DNA from: Candidatus Bathyarchaeota archaeon
Lineage (GTDB): Archaea; Thermoproteota; Bathyarchaeia; Bathyarchaeales; Bathycorpusculaceae
NCBI GenBank assembly: GCA_018396675.1
Contig: JAGTQX010000012.1
Coordinates: 120,859-184,858 of the forward strand
DNA length: 64,000 nt
Direction of reading: 5' to 3'
This document shows, piece after piece, positions 27,139 through 39,486 of this stretch. The translations under genes and the position numbers were made by a program. Every line of letters begins with the position of its first letter. Positions within the stretch are counted from its first letter, which is position 1. Under the pieces are notes generated by a model. The model was not told where the DNA came from, did no database searches, and worked only from the letters and a program-made list of their open reading frames with translations.

Positions 27139-28512
27139 TCATAAGACTACAATTACAGAAACGTCATTAACATTTGTGCCAGTGGAACCTGTAAAAATCA
27201 AATCGTCCAGTTTTAAAAAGAAATTATACGAGTTGTTGTCAGCTAGGAAATCTTCAGCTTTTAACCCCATGGCTTCCGCTCTAGTCAAAGTTTTTCCGTC
27301 AACTATTGCTCCCGCAGCGTCCGTTGGGCCGTCTATGCCGTCAGTGCTCATTGAAGCTATAACCACGCCGTCTAGACTGCCAATTTTCAACGCAGATGCG
27401 AGAGCCATTTCCTGGTTTCTTCCCCCCAAACCTTTGCCAACAACCGTTACTGTTGTCTCACCACCAAGCACTATTCCTGCAGGTTTCCGAACGGGATTTC
27501 CAGACGCGATAATTTCGCGTGCTATTGAAGAAAGCGCCGTTCCAATGTGTCGGGCTTCTCCCTCAAGAAGTGAAGTTAACAAAAGCGTGTTTAATCCTTC
27601 CGATTTAAGAGCTCTGCATGCTGCGATGCTTGAGGCTCTGTTGTTTCCAATAATGACATTAAAAACTTTTTGAAAAGCTTCGTCATTTGCCTTCGGCGTC
27701 TCTGGAACGCGTCCCTGCTCGCCTAACGTTAAAACCTTTTTAACTGATTCTGGAGCATTTTTCCATAAACCATATTTCCGCAAGACTCTTATTGCGTCGC
27801 TAAAAGTCGTCGAATCTGGAACTGTCGGACCAGAGGCAATAAAGTCCAGCGGATCGCCTAAAACATCAGACAAAATGAGGTTAACAATTGTTGCTGGATA
27901 AGCTTTTTTCGCGAGCCAGCCGCCCTTAAACTGTGAAATATGTTTTCGAACAGTGTTTATCTCATTTATCGTCGCTCCACACTTGAGCATTTCCTCAGTT
28001 ATTTTCCTCTTATCAACCATTGTAATGTTTTCTCTGGGCAGTGGCATTAGGCTGGAGCCACCTCCAGAGATCAAACATATTATTAAATCATGTTCACTTG
28101 CTTTTTCGGCTATCTCAAGCATTTGTTTTGTTCCTTCAACCCCCGACTCATCTGGAATCGGGTGGCTTGCCCAATGAAGCTTAACTGTGCGAGTGGAGTG
28201 TTTCACGCCTTTTGGAACGTTTACTATGCCCGCTGTGATTTTGTCTCCTAAAATTGACTCTATGGCTTCAGCCATCGAACCGCTTGCCTTTCCGCCGCCA
28301 ATAACATATATATTTTTGAACTTTTTTAAGTCAAAAATGTAGCCTTCGACTTCAAGAATAGAACCTTTAAGCGAAACTTTTGATTCGATTGCCGCTTTTG
28401 GATCTGCAGCTTCAACGGCGACTTCCAAACTTTTTAAGGCTATTTTTCTCGCTTTTCTGTCAATTTCTGTAGTGCCATTTTGGATAAGTTGCTTTTTGTT
28501 CTTAATCTCCAC
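27139..28512 (-). CDS. gck: Glycerate 2-kinase (GckA/MOFRL family)
   Basis: Phosphorylates D-glycerate to 2-phosphoglycerate. The 457-residue protein has the DUF4147 domain (YVIGGGKASGSMAEAIE near residue 90, CLISGGGSSLMPLP near 165, GGETTVTVVGKGLGGRNQEMAL near 365) and the MOFRL C-terminus (STDGIDGPTDAAGAI near 400). GTG start at 28512. It is divergent from the glyoxylate/hydroxypyruvate reductase gene, its likely pathway partner. Confidence 0.93.
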   Translation of the reverse strand: MEIKNKKQLIQNGTTEIDRKARKIALKSLEVAVEAADPKAAIESKVSLKGSILEVEGYIFDLKKFKNIYVIGGGKASGSMAEAIESILGDKITAGIVNVPKGVKHSTRTVKLHWASHPIPDESGVEGTKQMLEIAEKASEHDLIICLISGGGSSLMPLPRENITMVDKRKITEEMLKCGATINEINTVRKHISQFKGGWLAKKAYPATIVNLILSDVLGDPLDFIASGPTVPDSTTFSDAIRVLRKYGLWKNAPESVKKVLTLGEQGRVPETPKANDEAFQKVFNVIIGNNRASSIAACRALKSEGLNTLLLTSLLEGEARHIGTALSSIAREIIASGNPVRKPAGIVLGGETTVTVVGKGLGGRNQEMALASALKIGSLDGVVIASMSTDGIDGPTDAAGAIVDGKTLTRAEAMGLKAEDFLADNNSYNFFLKLDDLIFTGSTGTNVNDVSVIVVL

Positions 28513-28609
28513 GGTTCAAGCACCATCATAAATTCTGAAGGAAGAGAATAGTAAATGTAATAAGTTTAACGTTAATAAAGTGTTTCGCAATGTCCTTTAG
28601 GTGAGATGT

Positions 28610-29617
28610 ATGGCTAAACCAAAAGTTTACGTAACTCGAGAACTTCCCGAAAGAGGAATGAAAATAATCAGAGAACGTTTCGAAATGGAAGTTTGGCCGG
28701 AATACAGTCCTCCGCCTAAAGAATTGATAATAAAGAAAGCAATGGACGTTGACGCTTTAGCCACGCTTCTTTCTGACAAGATAGATGCTGAAGTTTTTGA
28801 TGCTGCACCGAAATTGAAAATTATCGCGCAGATGGCTGTAGGCTTTGACAATATAGACGTGAAAGAGGCGACAAAAAGAGGCATATACGTGACGAATACA
28901 CCGGGAGTTTTAACGGAAACAACGGCGGATTTCGCTTGGGCTTTGCTGATGGCTGTTGCAAGACGCGTCGTCGAAGCAGACAAATACGTGCGCACTGGAC
29001 AATGGAAAGTTGGCTGGCACCCAAGCATGTTCCTCGGCAGGGACGTTTACGGCGCAACAATTGGCATTGTTGGAGCTGGCAGAATAGGAATAGCCGTCGC
29101 AAGAAGAGCAAAGGGCTTTAACATGAAAATCCTTTACTACGACGTTGTGCCAATGCCGCCTGAAATAGAAAAAGAACTTGGCGCCAAACGTGTAGACTTG
29201 GAAACCATTTTCAAAGAATCCGACTTTGTAAGCATTCACGTGCCACTAATGAAAGAGACATATCACTTGGTAAACGAAGAAAAGCTAAAACTGATGAAAA
29301 AGACCGCCTACCTAATCAACAACGCAAGAGGCCCAGTTGTAGATGAAAAAGCGCTTTACAGAGCCTTAAAGGAAGGGTGGATTGCAGGTGCAGGGCTAGA
29401 TGTTTTTGAACAGGAACCAACGCCTGTGGATAACCCACTGCTGAAACTTGAAAACGTCGTCGTTGCACCACATATTTCAAGCGCTAGCCATGAAACACGT
29501 TCAAGAATGGCTGAAATGGTAGCTGAAAATCTAGTCGCCTTCTTCGAAGGCAAACAACCGCCGAACCTTGTGAACCCAGAAGTCTTGAAAGTGCGTCCAC
29601 TATCTAAACTCTTTTAA
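28610..29617 (+). CDS. gyaR: Glyoxylate/hydroxypyruvate reductase (D-2-hydroxyacid dehydrogenase)
   Basis: A 335-residue D-isomer 2-hydroxyacid dehydrogenase. NAD-binding [19 protein letters not shown] is near residue 147, and the catalytic Arg ([10 protein letters not shown]), Glu (GLDVFEQEP) and His (VAPHISSAS) are present. It is closest by eye to archaeal GyaR, which makes glycolate or D-glycerate. ATG 28610 is preceded by TTAGGTGAG; a GTG at 28601 lies inside that site. Opposite gckA, so glycerate formation and phosphorylation are adjacent. Confidence 0.9.
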
Positions 29618-29698
29618 ACATCAACATCTCGTTTCGTAGAGTGTAATAGTTAAATACTGCAGATTGATAACTTCACTTTCCAAAGTCAGGCGGTTGTT

Positions 29699-30877
29699 AT
29701 GGTTTCCATAATTGCAGATAGAATGTCGGTTCTTGGCACTGAAACAGCCTTCGAAGTGCTTGCTCGGGCAAGAGCTCTTGAAAAACAGGGAAGAGATGTG
29801 GTCCATTTAGAGATAGGTGAACCAGACTTTGACACACCGAAAAACATCAAGGAAGCAGCCGTAAAGGCAATTTATAATGGTTATACACATTACGTTCCAG
29901 CAGCTGGCATTCCTGAACTGCGTGAGGCAATAGCCGAACACATTTCAGAAACCAGAAAAATCCCTGTAGATCCCGACGAAGTTGTTGTGACTCCTGGTGC
30001 AAAACCGATAATGTTTTTTGCTATACTTGCATGCGTAAATCCTGGCGAGGAAGTTCTCTATCCGAATCCGGGCTTCCCAATATATGAGTCAATGATAAAT
30101 TTTGTCGGAGCCAAACCAGTGCCAATACCGCTCAAAGAAGAGAACGATTTTAGGCTTGATCATGAATACGTGAAAAAGAAGATAACCAAAAAGACCAAAA
30201 TGATTATCTTAAACTCTCCTGAAAATCCGACAGGCGGAGTCTTAACCAAGGAGGATTTGAAAGTTATAGCTGACTGCATCGCAGACAGAGATGATGTTCT
30301 AGTGCTTTCTGACGAAATTTACAGCCGAATACTTTACGAAGGTAAACATGAAAGCATCGCTTCGCTCCCCGGAATGAAAGAGAAAACCCTAATACTTGAC
30401 GGCTTTTCGAAAACTTACGCGATGACTGGATGGAGACTTGGCTACGGCGTAGTTCGAAAAGATCTAGCCCAAAAAATTACACAGCTGATGGTTAACTCGA
30501 ACTCGTGTACATGTGCCTTCATACAAGTTGCAGGTGTTGAAGCTTTAAAAGGCCCGCAAGATTCTGTAGACAAAATGGTTGCGGAATTCAAGAAACGCCG
30601 AGAGGTAATAGTTTCCGGGTTAAACAACATTAAAGGCATAACATGCAAAAAACCTAAAGGCGCTTTCTACGTGTTTCCAAATATAAGAAGTGTTGGAATG
30701 AGTTCCAAAGAGTTTTCCGATTACCTACTCAACGAGGCTGGTGTGGCGGTTCTGCCAGGGACATCCTTCGGAGAGTACGGCGAGGGACACTTGCGCATAT
30801 CTTTCGCAAACTCTGTTGAAAATATTAAGAAAGCCTTGGACAGGATAAACGAAGCTGTTAAAAAATTGAAAAAATAG
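29699..30877 (+). CDS. Class I/II PLP-dependent aminotransferase
   Basis: A 392-residue fold-type I aminotransferase. It has HLEIGEPDFDTP near residue 39, YVPAAGIPELREAI near 62, NSPENPTGG near 175, SDEIYSRILYEG near 210 and the PLP lysine in DGFSKTYAMTGWRLGY near 242. Family members act on aspartate, alanine, glyoxylate or aromatic amino acids; the substrate is not readable. Location after gyaR suggests supply of a 2-oxoacid such as hydroxypyruvate or glyoxylate, which is inference. Confidence 0.88.
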   Translation: MVSIIADRMSVLGTETAFEVLARARALEKQGRDVVHLEIGEPDFDTPKNIKEAAVKAIYNGYTHYVPAAGIPELREAIAEHISETRKIPVDPDEVVVTPGAKPIMFFAILACVNPGEEVLYPNPGFPIYESMINFVGAKPVPIPLKEENDFRLDHEYVKKKITKKTKMIILNSPENPTGGVLTKEDLKVIADCIADRDDVLVLSDEIYSRILYEGKHESIASLPGMKEKTLILDGFSKTYAMTGWRLGYGVVRKDLAQKITQLMVNSNSCTCAFIQVAGVEALKGPQDSVDKMVAEFKKRREVIVSGLNNIKGITCKKPKGAFYVFPNIRSVGMSSKEFSDYLLNEAGVAVLPGTSFGEYGEGHLRISFANSVENIKKALDRINEAVKKLKK

Positions 30878-33365: not shown

Positions 33366-33845
33366 TTGTTGGCGTACCCTAAAAGAGTGTACACTACGGA
33401 AGAGGTAAAAGAAGCGGAAAAACTTGTTAGGGAAGGTTATAAACATCGTTTGATCGTCAAAGGGAAACCTGCCTTTAAGAATAAAGTTAAAACCGCGTTG
33501 AAGTTTGTTAAAACGGCAGGTTACTATGACTTTTTGAGGACGTATATTAGAAGCATTATCGAGATTGACGGTTTCACTCAACTTCGTGAGGCTGAAGCTT
33601 CTATATGGGCAAATGAATATGCGGTGGCGAATCCGGTTGATGCGGCAAGCCTATTTGTGCAAAAAGCGAATCACATGAAGGAGTATCTGGAAGGAAAACT
33701 TTACTATGGCGGAGAAGCCGAAAAACGTTCTGTGGAAAAGCGCATAGAATTTCTAAAAACGTTAAAAAGGAAAAGCAGGAAAAGCGAAGTCAAAGAGGAA
33801 TGTGAAAGACTTCTAAGAAGCTGGAGCGAAAGCGTCTTTCTATAA
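33366..33845 (+). CDS. Conserved-looking hypothetical protein, basic and helical
   Basis: A 159-residue protein I do not recognise. It is basic, predicted mostly helical, and has no membrane segment. Notable blocks are VREGYKHRLIVKGKPAFKNKV near residue 20, KTAGYYDFLRTYIRSIIEIDG near 50 and EASIWANEYAVANPVDAASLF near 75. Start TTG 33366 with GGTGGAG 3 bases upstream (a second TTG follows at once). Placement right after eS25 hints at a translation or RNA-related role; that is inference. Its 3' end overlaps the convergent next gene by 6 bases. Confidence 0.7.
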   Translation: MLAYPKRVYTTEEVKEAEKLVREGYKHRLIVKGKPAFKNKVKTALKFVKTAGYYDFLRTYIRSIIEIDGFTQLREAEASIWANEYAVANPVDAASLFVQKANHMKEYLEGKLYYGGEAEKRSVEKRIEFLKTLKRKSRKSEVKEECERLLRSWSESVFL

Positions 33846-34226
33846 TTTTTCCACTTTTATTGTTGTTCCGCTTTTCACGTTGCTGAATAATTCAAGATTT
33901 TGGGTTACTTTGCCTAGAACATTCACTGGACTGTAGGGCTGCGAGTTTCCATAGAAGACGCATAGTGCGCTTCCCATAGGCCAAAAAGCTATTGCACCCT
34001 TTTCAACAGTGTTTTTCGCTTTTTCCTCGCCCATCTTCACTGGGATTTCAAAGTATACCTCTTCCTTCCACAGGGCTGCTCTTCCCTCTAATGGAAGCTT
34101 TCGAACAACCATGTCCACTGTTCTTGGAGATAGATGACGGATAAGCTCCCCTTCAGCTTCACCTAAACCTTCAACAACAAAGCGTATTTTCACTCTTGAA
34201 ATCTCGGCTTCATTGTTTTCCATCAA
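33840..34226 (-). CDS. Cyclophilin-like fold protein (DUF369/COG2164 type)
   Basis: A 128-residue protein. The pattern IRFVVEGLGEAEGELIRHLSPRTVD, EVYFEIPVKMGEEKA, and GAIAFWPMGSALCVFYG matches the small archaeal cyclophilin-like family of unknown activity. It overlaps the cDPG-synthetase-like gene by 4 bases and is translationally coupled to it. Confidence 0.75.
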   Translation of the reverse strand: MMENNEAEISRVKIRFVVEGLGEAEGELIRHLSPRTVDMVVRKLPLEGRAALWKEEVYFEIPVKMGEEKAKNTVEKGAIAFWPMGSALCVFYGNSQPYSPVNVLGKVTQNLELFSNVKSGTTIKVEKL

Positions 34227-35548
34227 TGATGCACCTTTTTGAGAAAATCTTCCAGAAGCTGCTCTAGTGACAACGGTCCCAAAACCTTAAGCTCATACTT
34301 TACTCTGACGGTCGGCTTTTCGATTTTCATGATTCTCCTCAAGTCGATTGGTGTTCCAATTACTACAACATCGCATGGCGTGTTGGCAATGGTTTCTTTA
34401 AGTTCTGCTATCTGTTTTTCTCCGTAACCCAGAGCCGGGAGAACAGTTCCTAAATGGGGATACTTTGCATAAGCCTCTTTTATAGAGCCAACTGCATATG
34501 GTCTTGGGTCGGTTATTTCGCTTGCACCAAGCTGCTTAGCCATTATTGTTGCTGCTCCGTAAGGCATGTTGCCATGGGTTAATGTTGGGCCGTCTTCGAT
34601 TACTAAAATTCTTCCCTTTACTAGCTCTGGCTTGTCTGCAGTTATTGGCGACGCCGCCTCCAGAATTGTGGCGTTTGGGTTTACCTTTCTTATGTTTTCC
34701 TTGACAGTATTGACGTTTTTAGGGTCTGCTGTGTCAACTTTGTTTATTATAACCACATCTGCCATTCTTATGTTTGCCTCACCTGGATGATAAGCAACTT
34801 CATGTCCAGGCCTATGTGGGTCTGCAACCACGATGTGCAAGTCTGGCTGGTAGAATGGTAAATCGTTATTCCCCCCGTCCCACACGATTATGTCTGCTTC
34901 TTTTTCTGCTTCTCTTAAAATTTTCTCGTAGTCGACTCCAGCGTAAACAACCACGCCATTATCAATATGGGGTTCATATTCCTCTCTTTCTTCAATTGTG
35001 CACTCGTGCTTGTCAAGGTCGTCGTAGGATGCGAATCGTTGACAAACCTGTTTCCTTAAATCGCCATAAGGCATGGGATGCCTAATCGCTACAACTCTCA
35101 AGCCCTTGTTTCTGAAAATTTTGGCAACAAGCCGAGAAGTTTGGCTTTTGCCTGAACCTGTCCTAACTGCGCCTATTGAAACCACTGGAACCTTAGCCTT
35201 GAGCATGGTTGTTTTCGGTCCCATTAAACAGAAGTCGGCGCCGTTTGCGAGCGCTATTGATGCTTTGTGCATAACATATTCGTGGGAGACATCGCTGTAT
35301 GCAAAGATCACCTGGTCAATGCTATGTTCTTTTATAAGTTTAGGGAGTTTTTCTTCAGGATAGATTGGTATACCGTTCGGGTAGTTTTTTCCAGCAAGCT
35401 CCGGAGGATAAATGCGTCCTTCTATGCCAGGGATTTGCGTGGCTGTGAAGGCCACGACTTCGTAGGCTTCGTTATCTCTAAAGTAAGTGTTGAAGTTGTG
35501 GAAATCTCTTCCAGCCGCGCCCATTATAATTACTTTGGTTTTTTGCAT
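34223..35548 (-). CDS. Cyclic 2,3-diphosphoglycerate synthetase-like protein (COG2403)
   Basis: A 441-residue protein with an N-terminal Rossmann-like part (VIIMGAAGRDFHNFN), a P-loop GAVRTGSGKSQTSR near residue 125, WDGGNNDLPFY near 225 and a nucleotide-binding NKVD near 270. It matches the family that includes cyclic 2,3-diphosphoglycerate synthetase of Methanothermus, which closes 2,3-DPG to the thermo- and osmoprotectant cDPG using ATP. Many members are annotated only as GTPases. Its leader is unusually structured (35549-35596). Confidence 0.8.
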   Translation of the reverse strand: MQKTKVIIMGAAGRDFHNFNTYFRDNEAYEVVAFTATQIPGIEGRIYPPELAGKNYPNGIPIYPEEKLPKLIKEHSIDQVIFAYSDVSHEYVMHKASIALANGADFCLMGPKTTMLKAKVPVVSIGAVRTGSGKSQTSRLVAKIFRNKGLRVVAIRHPMPYGDLRKQVCQRFASYDDLDKHECTIEEREEYEPHIDNGVVVYAGVDYEKILREAEKEADIIVWDGGNNDLPFYQPDLHIVVADPHRPGHEVAYHPGEANIRMADVVIINKVDTADPKNVNTVKENIRKVNPNATILEAASPITADKPELVKGRILVIEDGPTLTHGNMPYGAATIMAKQLGASEITDPRPYAVGSIKEAYAKYPHLGTVLPALGYGEKQIAELKETIANTPCDVVVIGTPIDLRRIMKIEKPTVRVKYELKVLGPLSLEQLLEDFLKKVHH

Positions 35549-35638: not shown

Positions 35639-36742
35639 TTATTTTGTTAAATGTGAAAGCGTTTCGCTTATGAAGTCTATCTGTCCAACGGTAACGCCAG
35701 GGTGTACTGGAAGTGAAAAAACTTGCTCTGAAGCTTTTTCTGTCTCTGGAAGCCGTCGCTTCCTAAATCTGTTGTAGTAAGGCATTAGGTGGATTGGGTG
35801 CGGATAGTAAACCTCTGCGCCTATGCCCTTGTTTTTAAGCTGTTCTACAATTGTATCTCTTTTTGTTCTGTTGGCGTTTTTTAGCCTCACAGTGTATAGA
35901 TACCAGCTGTTTTTGCAATTTTTAGGTTCTTCTGGAGGTTTCAACTGCTCGATTTTACTGAGCTTGACAGTAAGCCTATCTGCATTTTTTCTTCTTTCCT
36001 CGATGAAATTGGGCAATTTATTTAGCTGTACACAGCCTATTGCTGCTTCGATTTCCGGCATTCGATAATTGTGTCCTAACATTATTGACATGTACTTTTC
36101 TTTCTCTCCATGATTTCTTAAAAGCCGCAATTTTTCAGCAAACTCATCATTATTTGTAGTAACCATTCCACCTTCACCCGTCGTCATGTTTTTGCTGGCA
36201 TAAAAACTCCAACATGCAAAATCCGCATATGCACCAACCGGTTTCCCATGATACAATGCACCGTGTGCTTGAGCCGCGTCCTCGACAATTTTCAACCCAT
36301 GTTTATCCGCTATTTCCCGTATTGGTTTCATGTCTGCTGGCGAGCCATAAAGATCAACGGCTATAATGGCTTTTGTCTTTTTTGTTATTGCCCTCTCGAC
36401 GGCTTCCGGAGAAATGTTATACGTTTCAGGGTTTATGTCAACAAAAACTGGTTTGGCGCCAGCCATTACAACGGCTTCGGCTGTTGCAACAAAAGTGAAG
36501 CTTGGAAGAATTACTTCGTCACCTTGTTTTACGCCAGCGCCGACGACGGCCATATGCAGCGCAGCTGTTCCATTGTTCACAGCTAGTGCGTGTTTCGCTT
36601 TGATAAATTTTGCAAAGTTTTCTTCGAATTTTTGAACCATTGGTCCTTTGCCAAGGGCGTTGGTTAGTATGCCGCTTTTTAGAACATTTATGACTGCCTC
36701 AATTTCTTCTTCGTCTATTTGTGGAGCGTTAATTGGAATCAT
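35639..36742 (-). CDS. DegT/DnrJ/EryC1/StrS-family aminotransferase
   Basis: A 367-residue sugar-aminotransferase family protein. It has KHALAVNNGTAALHMA near residue 52, PSFTFVATAEAV near 78, EDAAQAHGALY near 155, and the PLP lysine in SFYASKNMTTGEGGM near 180. Such enzymes aminate nucleotide-linked keto-sugars for surface glycans. No other sugar genes are adjacent. A TATA element (TTTTTATAGG on the minus strand) lies at about 36776-36785. Confidence 0.9.
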   Translation of the reverse strand: MIPINAPQIDEEEIEAVINVLKSGILTNALGKGPMVQKFEENFAKFIKAKHALAVNNGTAALHMAVVGAGVKQGDEVILPSFTFVATAEAVVMAGAKPVFVDINPETYNISPEAVERAITKKTKAIIAVDLYGSPADMKPIREIADKHGLKIVEDAAQAHGALYHGKPVGAYADFACWSFYASKNMTTGEGGMVTTNNDEFAEKLRLLRNHGEKEKYMSIMLGHNYRMPEIEAAIGCVQLNKLPNFIEERRKNADRLTVKLSKIEQLKPPEEPKNCKNSWYLYTVRLKNANRTKRDTIVEQLKNKGIGAEVYYPHPIHLMPYYNRFRKRRLPETEKASEQVFSLPVHPGVTVGQIDFISETLSHLTK

Positions 36743-36853: not shown

Positions 36854-37519
36854 TTAGAAAAAGTTGTTGCTAATTTTTAGGTTTTTTATTCTATTTAGAA
36901 ACTCTTCTCTTTCTTTTTCCACCTCAAGTGTTCTGTTTCGTAGAAAATCGAGTTCTTCAGATATTTCCATAAGCCAATCCTCTATTGCTTTTTGGCACTC
37001 TTCAATAGACATTTTTGCAAGGTACCTAGAAACATCTTGGGGAACGCCTTTCTCTAGAGAATTTAGTGGACAAGCGATTTTTGGTGGTTTTATGAAAGGG
37101 AAAAAGTGCCTTGTTGTGCGCGGCTTCATTAGATTTCCGCTGATTCCAGCTGAAATTACCTCTTTTGTGGTTATTTCCATTTTTGAGTCATTTATGTATC
37201 TGTGGATGCGTCTGCTTCCAACGCGTATTTTTGGGTTCTGTGAAGCGTCTATGAGTATGACGGGTATCTGCTTGTAGCCGAGGCTTTTTAACGCGAGCCA
37301 ACGGTGCATTCCATCTAAAATGACTTTTGTTTTTTCGTCGGCGATTATTGGATATTTTAGAACTCCGTCTTTGAGTATTTCGTTTTTAAGCAGTTCAAGG
37401 TAGAGTGGAGAGCCTTTCTCATGTGGTTTAAGTTTGTCGATTTGCAAAAGTGTTATTTTTAAAGTTTGTTTTTCGGTTTTTTGAACAGTAAATGTCACTT
37501 GTCCGTCACCGTCTTTCAA
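36854..37519 (-). CDS. serK: SerK-like ParB/Srx-fold serine kinase
   Basis: A 221-residue protein with an N-terminal ParB/sulfiredoxin-like fold (about residues 15-95). It carries KLKPHEKGSP near 30, KDGVLKYPIIAD near 52 and the conserved ILDGMHRWLAL near 68; the rest is helical, ending in coiled coil. This matches SerK of Thermococcus, which phosphorylates free L-serine to O-phosphoserine with ADP, rather than a DNA-partitioning ParB, since no HTH or CTPase GxxR(R) box is seen. It overlaps trpB2 by 4 bases, so it should be translated together with an O-phosphoserine-using enzyme. Confidence 0.78.
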   Translation of the reverse strand: MKDGDGQVTFTVQKTEKQTLKITLLQIDKLKPHEKGSPLYLELLKNEILKDGVLKYPIIADEKTKVILDGMHRWLALKSLGYKQIPVILIDASQNPKIRVGSRRIHRYINDSKMEITTKEVISAGISGNLMKPRTTRHFFPFIKPPKIACPLNSLEKGVPQDVSRYLAKMSIEECQKAIEDWLMEISEELDFLRNRTLEVEKEREEFLNRIKNLKISNNFF

Positions 37520-38883
37520 TGTTTTGGGTTAACTATCGAAACTTCGATTTTTTCCGGCTCGTAATCAGCAAGTTTTCCAGCCAAATACTGTTCGTATGCA
37601 CCTAAATCCAGCAATCCGTGTCCGCTGTAGTTCATCGCAATAACTTTCTTTTCGCCGGTTTCGCGGCACTTTAATGCTTCATCTATAACGAATTTTAGAC
37701 TGTGTGCTGTTTCAGGAGCAATTATTAGCCCTTCTGCTTTAGCTAGTATTTGTGCTGCTTGGAAGACTTCACTTTGGTGGTAGGCAACTGAACGCATAAG
37801 CCCGCTGTGGATTAGGTAGGATATTGAAGGTGCCATTCCGTGATATCTTAAACCGCCAGCGTGAATTGGTGGACAAACGTATCCGTGTCCGATTGTTAAC
37901 ATTTTTAGGAGTGGAGTAAGCTGTGCTGTGTCTCCGAAGTCGTATGTGTAAACTCCCTTTGTTGTATGTGGCACTGCTTTGGATTCGCATGCGACAAACT
38001 CTGTTTCTGTTCTGCCATTAAGCTTGTCCATCATGAAGGGATAGCAGAAGCCAGCGTAATTTGATCCGCCGCCTATGCATCCACATACAACGTCTGGATA
38101 TTCCCCTATGATTTCAAACTGTTTTTTTGCTTCCAAACCAATTATCGTTTGATGCATCAAAACATGGTTTAGAACTGAACCAAGAGAATACCGCGTGTCT
38201 TCGTGGGTAACTGTGTCTTCTATTGCTTCACTTATGGCTATTCCAAGCGTTCCCGGATGGTTCGGGTTTTCCTTCAAGAGTTTTCTGCCAACACTAGTCT
38301 GCTCGCTTGGAGATGGAAACATTTCAGCACCGTAAAGTTGCACTATTGTTCTTCTGCCCGGCTTCTGTTGATAACTCACGCGAACCATATAGATTCTGCA
38401 GCTTAAGCCAAATATCACGCATGAAAAAGCAAGAGCTGTACCCCATTGTCCCGCACCTGTCTCTGTAACAAGCCTTTTTATTCCCTGTTCTTTGTTGTAG
38501 TACGCTTGGGCTAATGCAGTGTTTGTTTTATGGCTGCCTGTAGGACTGAAATTTTCACATTTGAAAAATATTTTCGCAGGTGTTTTAAGAAACTTTTCCA
38601 ACCGCGCAGCTCTGTAAAGCGGCGTGGGACGCGGCAACCGCAAATACGCGTCTAGGACCTCTTCTGGAATTTTTATGAAGCGTTCTGTTGAAACCTCCTG
38701 CCGTATTAGCTCTTTTGCGAATATTCTTTCGAGAACTTTTGGGTCTATGGGTTTTAGTGTTGTGGGGTCCAATGGCGGTGGGAGTCGTTCTGGAAGGTCT
38801 GCTTGGATGTTGTACCATGATGTCGGTATTTCGTCAGCGTTGAGTATGGTGAAGTGTTCGCTTTTTTGCACTTTCGCGTTCAT
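37516..38883 (-). CDS. trpB2: Tryptophan synthase beta-like TrpB2
   Basis: A 455-residue PLP enzyme of the TrpB2 class, longer than TrpB1 and with the family's N-terminal insertion (LPPPLDPTT...EDLIRQEV-like). Key blocks: RPTPLYRAARLEKFL, the PLP lysine in SPTGSHKTNTA near residue 122, ETGAGQWGTALA near 143, GCIGGGSNYAGF near 255 and HAGGLRYHGM near 340. TrpB2 enzymes lack the TrpA partner surface and several are known to use O-phospho-L-serine plus indole. No trpA is nearby. SerK-like is coupled downstream and a TrpY-like regulator is divergent. Confidence 0.93.
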   Translation of the reverse strand: MNAKVQKSEHFTILNADEIPTSWYNIQADLPERLPPPLDPTTLKPIDPKVLERIFAKELIRQEVSTERFIKIPEEVLDAYLRLPRPTPLYRAARLEKFLKTPAKIFFKCENFSPTGSHKTNTALAQAYYNKEQGIKRLVTETGAGQWGTALAFSCVIFGLSCRIYMVRVSYQQKPGRRTIVQLYGAEMFPSPSEQTSVGRKLLKENPNHPGTLGIAISEAIEDTVTHEDTRYSLGSVLNHVLMHQTIIGLEAKKQFEIIGEYPDVVCGCIGGGSNYAGFCYPFMMDKLNGRTETEFVACESKAVPHTTKGVYTYDFGDTAQLTPLLKMLTIGHGYVCPPIHAGGLRYHGMAPSISYLIHSGLMRSVAYHQSEVFQAAQILAKAEGLIIAPETAHSLKFVIDEALKCRETGEKKVIAMNYSGHGLLDLGAYEQYLAGKLADYEPEKIEVSIVNPKH

Positions 38884-38899
38884 TTATCTTCACCATTGA

Positions 38900-38970
38900 A
38901 CATTTATGTACATGTGCACGCACAATAGTGCATCGACATATTTATACTTTATTGCACAGAAAAGTACATT
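38900..38970. promoter_or_regulatory. Shared trpB2/trpY regulatory region with TRP-box-like repeats
   Basis: TGTACA at 38907-38912 equals the TRP box bound by TrpY in Methanothermobacter. Related sites are TGTGCAC (38913-38919), AGTGCAT (38927-38933), TTGCACA (38952-38958) and AGTACAT (38963-38969). On the minus strand TGTACATAAATG places the exact box against the likely TATA of trpB2. On the plus strand CATATTTATACTTT (38936-38949) is the likely regulator promoter, flanked by the other boxes. Confidence 0.6.
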
Positions 38971-38982
38971 AGGCAAAATGAA

Positions 38983-39486
38983 ATGTGGAACAAAATAAAA
39001 AAACATCTGGAAAACTACCCCGAACGACTAAAAGTAGCACGCATTCTGGTGGAAAACGGCTTAAGCGTAAAAAACGGAAAAATCTACCTAAACGAAATTG
39101 AAATCCCACCAGTGCGCATCGCAAGAGTTGCTGGTGTTGACAGAAGAACAGTAAACGAAACAATAAACACCATAAATACTAACCGTGAACTACGCCAAAT
39201 CTTTGAAGATTTGAGATCAGCGGGACATTCGCTAAAAGAGATTGCTCGGCACTTGCAACTTGGAGTTGTCGAGATCACACCTGTTGACGCACGTGTCCCC
39301 GGCATACTAGCAAATTCCGCTATGATTCTCTCCAAAAACGGTCTGAGCATAAGGCAAGCAATAGTTGATGACCCGGAACTTTCTCCAGAACCGAAACTAA
39401 CGCTAATTGTGGAAAAGAAAATTCCAGGCGAATTAATCCCCGAGTTTCTTAAAATAAACGGTGTTGCCAAAGTATCTGTCTACTAA
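38983..39486 (+). CDS. TrpY-like HTH-ACT regulator of amino-acid metabolism
   Basis: A 167-residue protein of the COG2150 type: an N-terminal helix-turn-helix (PPVRIARVAGVDRRTVNETINTI region, about residues 42-65) and a C-terminal ACT domain (LTLIVEKKIPGELIPEFLKINGVAKVSVY). TrpY of Methanothermobacter has this design and represses trp genes, binding tryptophan. It is divergent from trpB2-serK, and TGTACA-like boxes lie between them. A tryptophan-responsive autoregulated repressor is the best guess. Confidence 0.82.
   Translation: MWNKIKKHLENYPERLKVARILVENGLSVKNGKIYLNEIEIPPVRIARVAGVDRRTVNETINTINTNRELRQIFEDLRSAGHSLKEIARHLQLGVVEITPVDARVPGILANSAMILSKNGLSIRQAIVDDPELSPEPKLTLIVEKKIPGELIPEFLKINGVAKVSVY

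Follow-up and report, generated by a model that had tools for sequence, protein, structure and literature searches.

The stretch of DNA analysed here (hereafter, the window) comprises 64,000 nucleotides of a Candidatus Bathyarchaeota archaeon (assembly GCA_018396675.1, contig JAGTQX010000012.1, positions 120,859 to 184,858) and carries on its minus strand a trpB2 gene followed by a gene for a SerK-like protein. We consider it likely that these two genes form a two-enzyme cassette, in which the SerK-like protein provides TrpB2 with the O-phosphoserine needed for indole salvage. The trpB2 gene (37516–38883) encodes a TrpB-like pyridoxal phosphate (PLP) enzyme of 455 residues; the SerK-like gene is listed as an open reading frame of 221 residues with a TTG start (36854–37519), and a comparison of starts among homologues makes a GTG start likelier (36854–37498, 214 residues). 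A sequence-only reading of the window had placed both genes here and had proposed their metabolic link, and the open reading frame list agrees with it on their positions. In the first step of the proposed mechanism, the SerK-like protein would phosphorylate serine to O-phosphoserine. In the second, TrpB2 would condense O-phosphoserine with indole to give tryptophan, as is established for the TrpB2 class. The indole would come from outside or from breakdown, because trpA, IGPS (the indole-3-glycerol phosphate synthase gene) and trpB1 were not found in the archaeal carriers of the cassette (trpE, trpD, trpF and trpG were not searched for). A TrpY-family regulator (38983–39486, plus strand, 167 residues), transcribed divergently from trpB2, would probably couple the cassette to the tryptophan supply. 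TrpB2 has posed a puzzle in that it needs O-phosphoserine and often occurs without TrpA. A recurrent kinase-like partner would give its phosphoserine a source, in a role that is testable with two small genes, and we propose that this partner represents reduced members of the SerK kinase type, whose range would thereby extend to bacteria. No report of the SerK–trpB2 pairing was found in the open-access literature, a search that left most subscription papers and all bioRxiv preprints outside.

The pairing recurs well beyond the window. The long form of SerK was sought in 201 genomes of the class to which the window belongs and was found in 16, the window's own included, as open frames of 209–251 residues, with two more cut by contig ends, at an identity of 64–77%. 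Directly upstream of it, on the same strand, lies trpB2 in 15 of these 16 module genomes; in the remaining one (G110), the SerK gene is truncated by the end of the contig and no trpB2 was found there. A scan of named genomes returned 14 archaeal SerK loci, 12 from Bathyarchaeota or Bathyarchaeia and two from entries labelled 'uncultured archaeon', all of which (14/14) show the TrpB2 C-terminal motif and stop codon upstream of SerK. Five of these loci were new relative to the class survey (L064, L067, L069, L070 and L071), and in total 20 of 21 archaeal SerK loci have trpB2 immediately before them in the same orientation, which bears out the adjacency that the sequence-only reading had expected across archaeal genomes. 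The genome of the window totals 1.31 Mb over 15 contigs, is 87.9% complete and contains one match to the SerK-like protein. Among the matches listed, further proteins of the class with SerK or ParB resemblance, such as those of about 290 residues and the fusions of 580 residues, do not adjoin trpB2. In genome G199, a shorter SerK-like gene (158 residues) follows trpB2. A diverged SerK-like stretch was also seen just downstream of trpB2 in G125, which belongs to another family (contig C45, 22216–23889); it contains one in-frame stop, and for this reason it was not counted as a module.

A fifteenth locus of the same scan (L075) is bacterial. In Fermentithermobacillaceae bacterium UBA3907 (Bacillota), trpB2, which contains a masked stretch, is followed by a different SerK-like gene, which belongs to a second, separate family shorter than the long archaeal form. 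This bacterial type occurs in 23 of the 154 genomes of the class of L075, at 24 loci, and TrpB2 adjoins it at 21 of these, once as a partial match (L081), with no TrpB2 adjoining at L096, L097 and L098. In the phylum of G201, seven of 398 genomes have a match, with TrpB2 adjacent in three (G201, G352 and G430, the last of them new) and not beside the SerK-like match in G572, G550, G393 and G683. In a tree that contains no bacterial TrpB2 lacking SerK, the 20 bacterial TrpB2 form one fully supported group relative to the archaeal ones. Because the pairing is found again in different families and in archaea as well as bacteria, it is far beyond chance, and the pair is a real, recurrent two-gene cassette, of which the bacterial class carries a separate, shorter form. 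One bacterial genome (G227) carries two copies: L081, with an intact-looking SerK-like frame beside the partial trpB2 match, and L099, in which the trpB2 match is full and the neighbouring SerK-like gene has no DGHHR region.

The genomes that carry the cassette in archaea also share a particular complement of tryptophan genes. Across the 201 genomes of the class, trpA was found in 99, IGPS in 98 and either gene in 101, whereas the 16 module genomes yielded neither (Fisher test, 7e-6, with kinship ignored). A trpB1 match over the cut-off is likewise absent from these 16 and is present in G141 and G161. Archaeal module genomes with trpB2 in which no trpA, IGPS or trpB1 was found are what indole salvage predicts. 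A possible reason for the kinase lies in the serine genes of the window, where a glycerate-2-kinase-like gene (27139–28512, minus strand; both NCBIfam matches at E 1e-60 are glycerate 2-kinases and are below their cut-offs), a glyoxylate/hydroxypyruvate reductase gene (28601–29617, plus strand; NF009714, 544.8 bits against a cut-off of 455) and a class I aminotransferase gene are clustered at 27139–30877, a cluster that may be read as a non-phosphorylated serine route. The reductase is the only match to the phosphoglycerate dehydrogenase (PGDH) model in the window's own genome; its orthologues occur in 12 other module genomes at 79–92% identity, and the orthologue is the sole PGDH-model match in 9 of the 16. 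Because the genome has the glycerate-kinase-like gene and the hydroxypyruvate reductase and no other PGDH-model match, its serine route would bypass O-phosphoserine and hence create the need for a kinase (the searches did not extend to SerC or stand-alone cysteine synthases).

A different explanation of the locus, which we regard as rather unlikely, is that SerK makes O-phosphoserine for general use in cysteine synthesis and serine assimilation, and stands beside trpB2 only to share a promoter. These are the processes served by TkSerK (TK0378), the adenosine diphosphate (ADP)-dependent kinase of Thermococcus kodakarensis (PMC5120207), and some relatives of the window's archaeon fuse SerK-like domains to an enzyme resembling O-phosphoserine sulfhydrylase. 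The domain content of such fusions was read in the protein of G161 (L020, 1483–3228, 581 residues), in which a SerK-like domain, scoring 63.2 bits against the SerK model, is joined to a PLP domain that among PDB entries best matches the O-phosphoserine sulfhydrylase of A. pernix (E 1.2e-57). In our reading, this protein holds a second, degenerate SerK-like copy, and it is likely a serine-to-cysteine fusion. The fusion also counts in favour of the proposed cassette. Frames of 580–658 residues that match the SerK-like protein occur in six more genomes (G141, G143, G148, G162, G171 and G194).

However, we note three observations that argue against such a general role. First, the pairing exists with two SerK families, and one SerK lineage is paired with two trpB2 lineages. 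In G006 and L069, a trpB2 of the other lineage, nearest to that of G199, stands beside a SerK of the usual lineage, suggesting either an exchange of the synthase at a kinase that stayed in place or a move of the kinase to a different trpB2. Within the tree, the module trpB2 of family f17 also falls inside a group of mostly f1 genes, which suggests transfer. Second, G141, of the same genus as G143, G148 and G162, has a trpB2 that nests with theirs inside the module clade, and only SerK is missing from the gene order, the DegT gene following directly after trpB2; this genome possesses trpA, IGPS and trpB1 as well as a long SerA-like frame. Third, SepRS, which is among the general consumers of O-phosphoserine, has no match over its cut-off (380.65 bits) in the 16 module genomes, whose only matches to the model reach 49–91 bits and are presumably cross-matches of PheRS. 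Elsewhere in the class, G002 has trpB2 without trpA, IGPS or the long SerK and has a SepRS over the cut-off (561.7 bits), so that O-phosphoserine should arise there by another route.

The proposed supply of O-phosphoserine to TrpB2 depends on the nature of the SerK-like protein. At an E-value threshold of 0.001, its only Pfam match is ParB_N, with no second Pfam domain found, and its best NCBIfam match is SerK, the ADP-dependent L-serine kinase (NF053625). The cut-offs for SbnI (NF033589, 39.5 bits against 350) and for the ParB partition family (TIGR00180, 21.3 bits against 58.45) were both missed. In the PDB, the protein matches 5x0b, a free serine kinase, best (E 3.2e-10). A joint profile matches the same structure at E 4.9e-23 in two collinear blocks, 12–116 and 204–241, the second of which is weak alone (i-Evalue 0.0039). 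An alignment of 19 SerK-like proteins, five archaeal and 14 bacterial (alignment A4, in which residue numbers follow the 221-residue frame), showed that the invariant columns (19/19) include L30, H33, E34, D69, G70, H72, R73 and H138, with T135 and R137 nearly invariant. E34 (codon 37418–37420, minus strand) aligns with E30 of TkSerK and E20 of SbnI, and D69, which lies in a DGMHR motif (codon 37313–37315, minus strand), aligns with D69 of TkSerK and D58 of SbnI, the SbnI numbering assuming an apparent two-residue tag in the PDB chain. The codons of R137 and H138 (37106–37111, minus strand) belong to a PRTTRH block that aligns with TTRH 222–225 of TkSerK. Counterparts of E30, D69, H72 and TTRH of TkSerK are therefore all present, and the expectation of the sequence-only reading that catalytic residues of SerK would appear on structural alignment held. 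PDB titles name E30A and E30Q mutants of SerK, and Glu20 and Asp58 of SbnI are reported to be required for kinase activity (PMC9641203).

The predicted model of the SerK-like protein (predicted local distance difference test, pLDDT, 78.9; predicted template modelling score, pTM, 0.72) points in the same direction. The top nine Foldseek matches all belong to SerK, to its Pyrococcus homologue or to SbnI; their template modelling (TM) scores are 0.41–0.51 by query length. A second structure aligner gave Z 16.2 with 1vk1 (root-mean-square deviation, rmsd, 2.4 over 130 residues) and Z 14.8 with 5x0j, which is SerK with phosphoserine and adenosine monophosphate (rmsd 2.6 over 130 residues); the scores against 1vk1 and the 5x0 entries, from Z 16.2 to 11.5 over 130–139 residues, represent catalytic-core fold matches. 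The ratio of nonsynonymous to synonymous substitution rates (dN/dS) is 0.03–0.19 in four SerK pairs, one of which has a saturated dS. Based on these residues and this fold, we infer that the SerK-like protein is related, in reduced form, to the free serine kinases with a ParB fold and would phosphorylate serine to O-phosphoserine.

Several observations weigh against this assignment and against the cassette as a source of O-phosphoserine. The match to the SerK family reaches 62.9 bits and misses the cut-off of 380, residues 117–203 of TkSerK (about 87 middle residues) have no counterpart in the SerK-like protein, and W102 of TkSerK is not conserved in the long archaeal form. The pLDDT of the model is only about 62 over the TTRH region, the Foldseek TM scores to SerK are moderate (0.45–0.51), and the bacterial copy without the DGHHR part (L099) nonetheless stands beside trpB2. 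The evidence for the SerK–trpB2 cassette comes from genes and predicted structure. As for the genomes, a completeness of 87.9% makes the absences in the window's own genome weak when taken alone. More than one PGDH-model match was found in seven of the 16 module genomes (G006, G011, G033, G110, G148, G162 and G163), the extra matches of G162 including a long SerA-like frame; these seven could make O-phosphoserine otherwise, and loss of SerA is not a clean rule. Exclusion of trpA as a rule holds in the archaeal module (0/16) and fails in bacteria, where trpA is present in nine of 20 module genomes, one of them with a fragment; across the bacterial class, trpA was found in 112 of 154 genomes, and the module genomes have it less often (p 0.006). 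Among the 70 trpB2-bearing genomes of the archaeal class without trpA or IGPS, 55 have no long SerK, although two of these 55, G199 and G125, carry the shorter or diverged SerK-like stretch beside trpB2. Thus, SerK would be one solution but does not explain TrpB2 in general. The sequence-only reading had offered the kinase as an explanation of why TrpB2 persists without TrpA; this agrees with the 16 module genomes, in which trpA, IGPS and trpB1 were not found, and does not extend to the majority of the comparable trpB2 genomes. Overall, that reading is partly supported, and the cassette is better supported than sequence alone could show.

To the same list belongs the report that an archaeal SerK-like fusion binds cytidine triphosphate and not adenosine triphosphate (PMC12704722), which also favours a second alternative, in which the ParB-fold protein would control trpB2, acting as a nucleotide-sensing regulator or switch and not as a kinase. 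The fold is common to ParB and Noc, and SbnI is described, by its family name and in PMC9641203, as a regulator as well as a kinase. However, no second Pfam domain accompanies the fold in the SerK-like protein, the cut-off of the ParB family TIGR00180 is missed, and all 19 aligned proteins keep, without exception, the residues required for kinase activity. With a TrpY-family regulator already at the locus, we consider a further regulator in this position improbable.

The other partner in the proposed kinase–synthase cassette is the synthase itself. The TrpB2 protein exceeds the cut-offs of TIGR01415 (683.1 bits against 518.85) and NF009057 (697.1 bits against 366), and its match to the solved TrpB2-type chains 6hul, 4qys and 6hte is nearly full-length (E 2e-147 to 3e-137). 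Both an ETGAGQWG and a GSHK motif are present, the former presumably including the glutamate that TrpB uses for indole. Ten of the 15 trpB2-bearing module genomes (G006, G132, G138, G156, G162, G163, G167, G171, G184 and G194) carry a further TrpB2 copy, which is more distant and about 434–451 residues long. The regulator encoded divergently from trpB2 exceeds the cut-off of the TrpY family (NF053754, 195.3 bits against 180), and a TrpY-family gene takes this position in 15 of the 15 module genomes having trpB2; such a divergent gene also occurs in many trpA-bearing genomes. Between the two genes lies a putative shared control region (38884–38982) with TGTACA/TGTGCA motifs and a TATA-like stretch. 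Across 14 genomes (13 module genomes and G141, with G006 and G138 left out), the spaces between TrpY and trpB2, including some coding bases, hold 25 TG[TC][AG]CA motifs versus 1.6 expected by shuffling, for a pattern that was chosen after inspecting the sequence. We take these motifs to resemble the TRP-box consensus. TrpY represses trp genes in M. thermautotrophicus, whereas the T. kodakarensis homologue does not (PMC6737238). That the cassette TrpB2 makes a product other than tryptophan from O-phosphoserine, e.g., cysteine or another beta-substituted alanine, is highly improbable: O-phosphoserine does feed cysteine synthesis in Thermococcus (PMC5120207) and a second function had at one time been considered for TrpB2 (PMC1854888), but the constant divergent neighbour is of the TrpY family and the ETGAGQWG motif of the window TrpB2 is intact.

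The cassette can be compared with known systems on both sides. On the kinase side, TkSerK shares the ParB-like fold with the window protein and is its best sequence match, and TkSerK and its Pyrococcus homologue are its best fold match; the window protein differs in the absence of the middle residues described above and, in the long archaeal form, in an added C-terminal helix. On the side of the pairing, SbnI and SbnA of staphyloferrin B synthesis in Staphylococcus resemble the cassette in that a ParB-fold serine kinase feeds O-phosphoserine to a biosynthetic PLP enzyme, which we take to be SbnA, although the product is a siderophore precursor and not tryptophan. CysO, the O-phosphoserine sulfhydrylase of A. 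pernix that best matches the PLP domain of the G161 fusion, likewise uses O-phosphoserine, whereas it makes cysteine and has no TrpB2-like part. Its N-terminal domain resembles the window protein weakly in fold (Z 5.1–5.4, below the aligner's caution level), which serves as a lead only. A wider reading, which is possible and which we hold tentatively, is that reduced SerK-like domains are a general plug-in supplier of O-phosphoserine that has repeatedly been paired with PLP enzymes: beside TrpB2 in archaea and bacteria, fused to O-phosphoserine sulfhydrylase in related archaea, and as SbnI with SbnA. Under it, O-phosphoserine would be handed over directly to TrpB2, possibly with a nucleotide donor other than ADP.

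Use of O-phosphoserine by TrpB2 is stated in PMC11917138, citing Busch et al. 2014. The survey of Merkl (2007) describes no conserved trpB2 neighbourhood beyond the trp operons (PMC1854888), from which the window TrpB2 differs in that a kinase-like gene follows. Makino et al. (2016) placed SerK in cysteine and serine metabolism, without mention of tryptophan in the main text, and reported clear homologues only in Thermococcales and Desulfurococcales; unlike the cassette gene, TkSerK is described there as lying outside any operon and serving the use of cysteine and serine (PMC5120207).

The sequence-only reading had also taken a four-base overlap of trpB2 and the SerK-like gene as direct evidence of their coupling. 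This overlap (TTGA) does exist with the first TTG as the start of the SerK-like gene, and it requires that start. However, homologues favour the GTG at 37498, which lies 17 bases past the trpB2 stop; because of this, the overlap is dropped as coupling evidence for the window, where it is doubtful, and the SerK-like gene is probably tightly linked to trpB2 and not overlapping. Among the 20 archaeal loci with listable starts, 15 have an ATG or GTG located 22–24 codons ahead of the PHE motif, and in 10 of the 20 no earlier start lies between the trpB2 stop and such a codon. The gap between the genes is small in the archaeal loci except at L069, whose first start is 211 bases further along. In G132 and G156 the genes may overlap by GTGA, a TTG at −4 is also present in L064, and the spacing to the first possible start is −4 in 10 of 21 bacterial loci, including L081 with its partial trpB2 only.

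Downstream of the SerK-like gene, the window carries a gene for a DegT-type aminotransferase (35639–36742, minus strand; PF01041, 448.7 bits). Further along the same strand, at 33840–35548, a cyclophilin-like gene and a gene of 441 residues with a cobW-type match likewise overlap by four bases.

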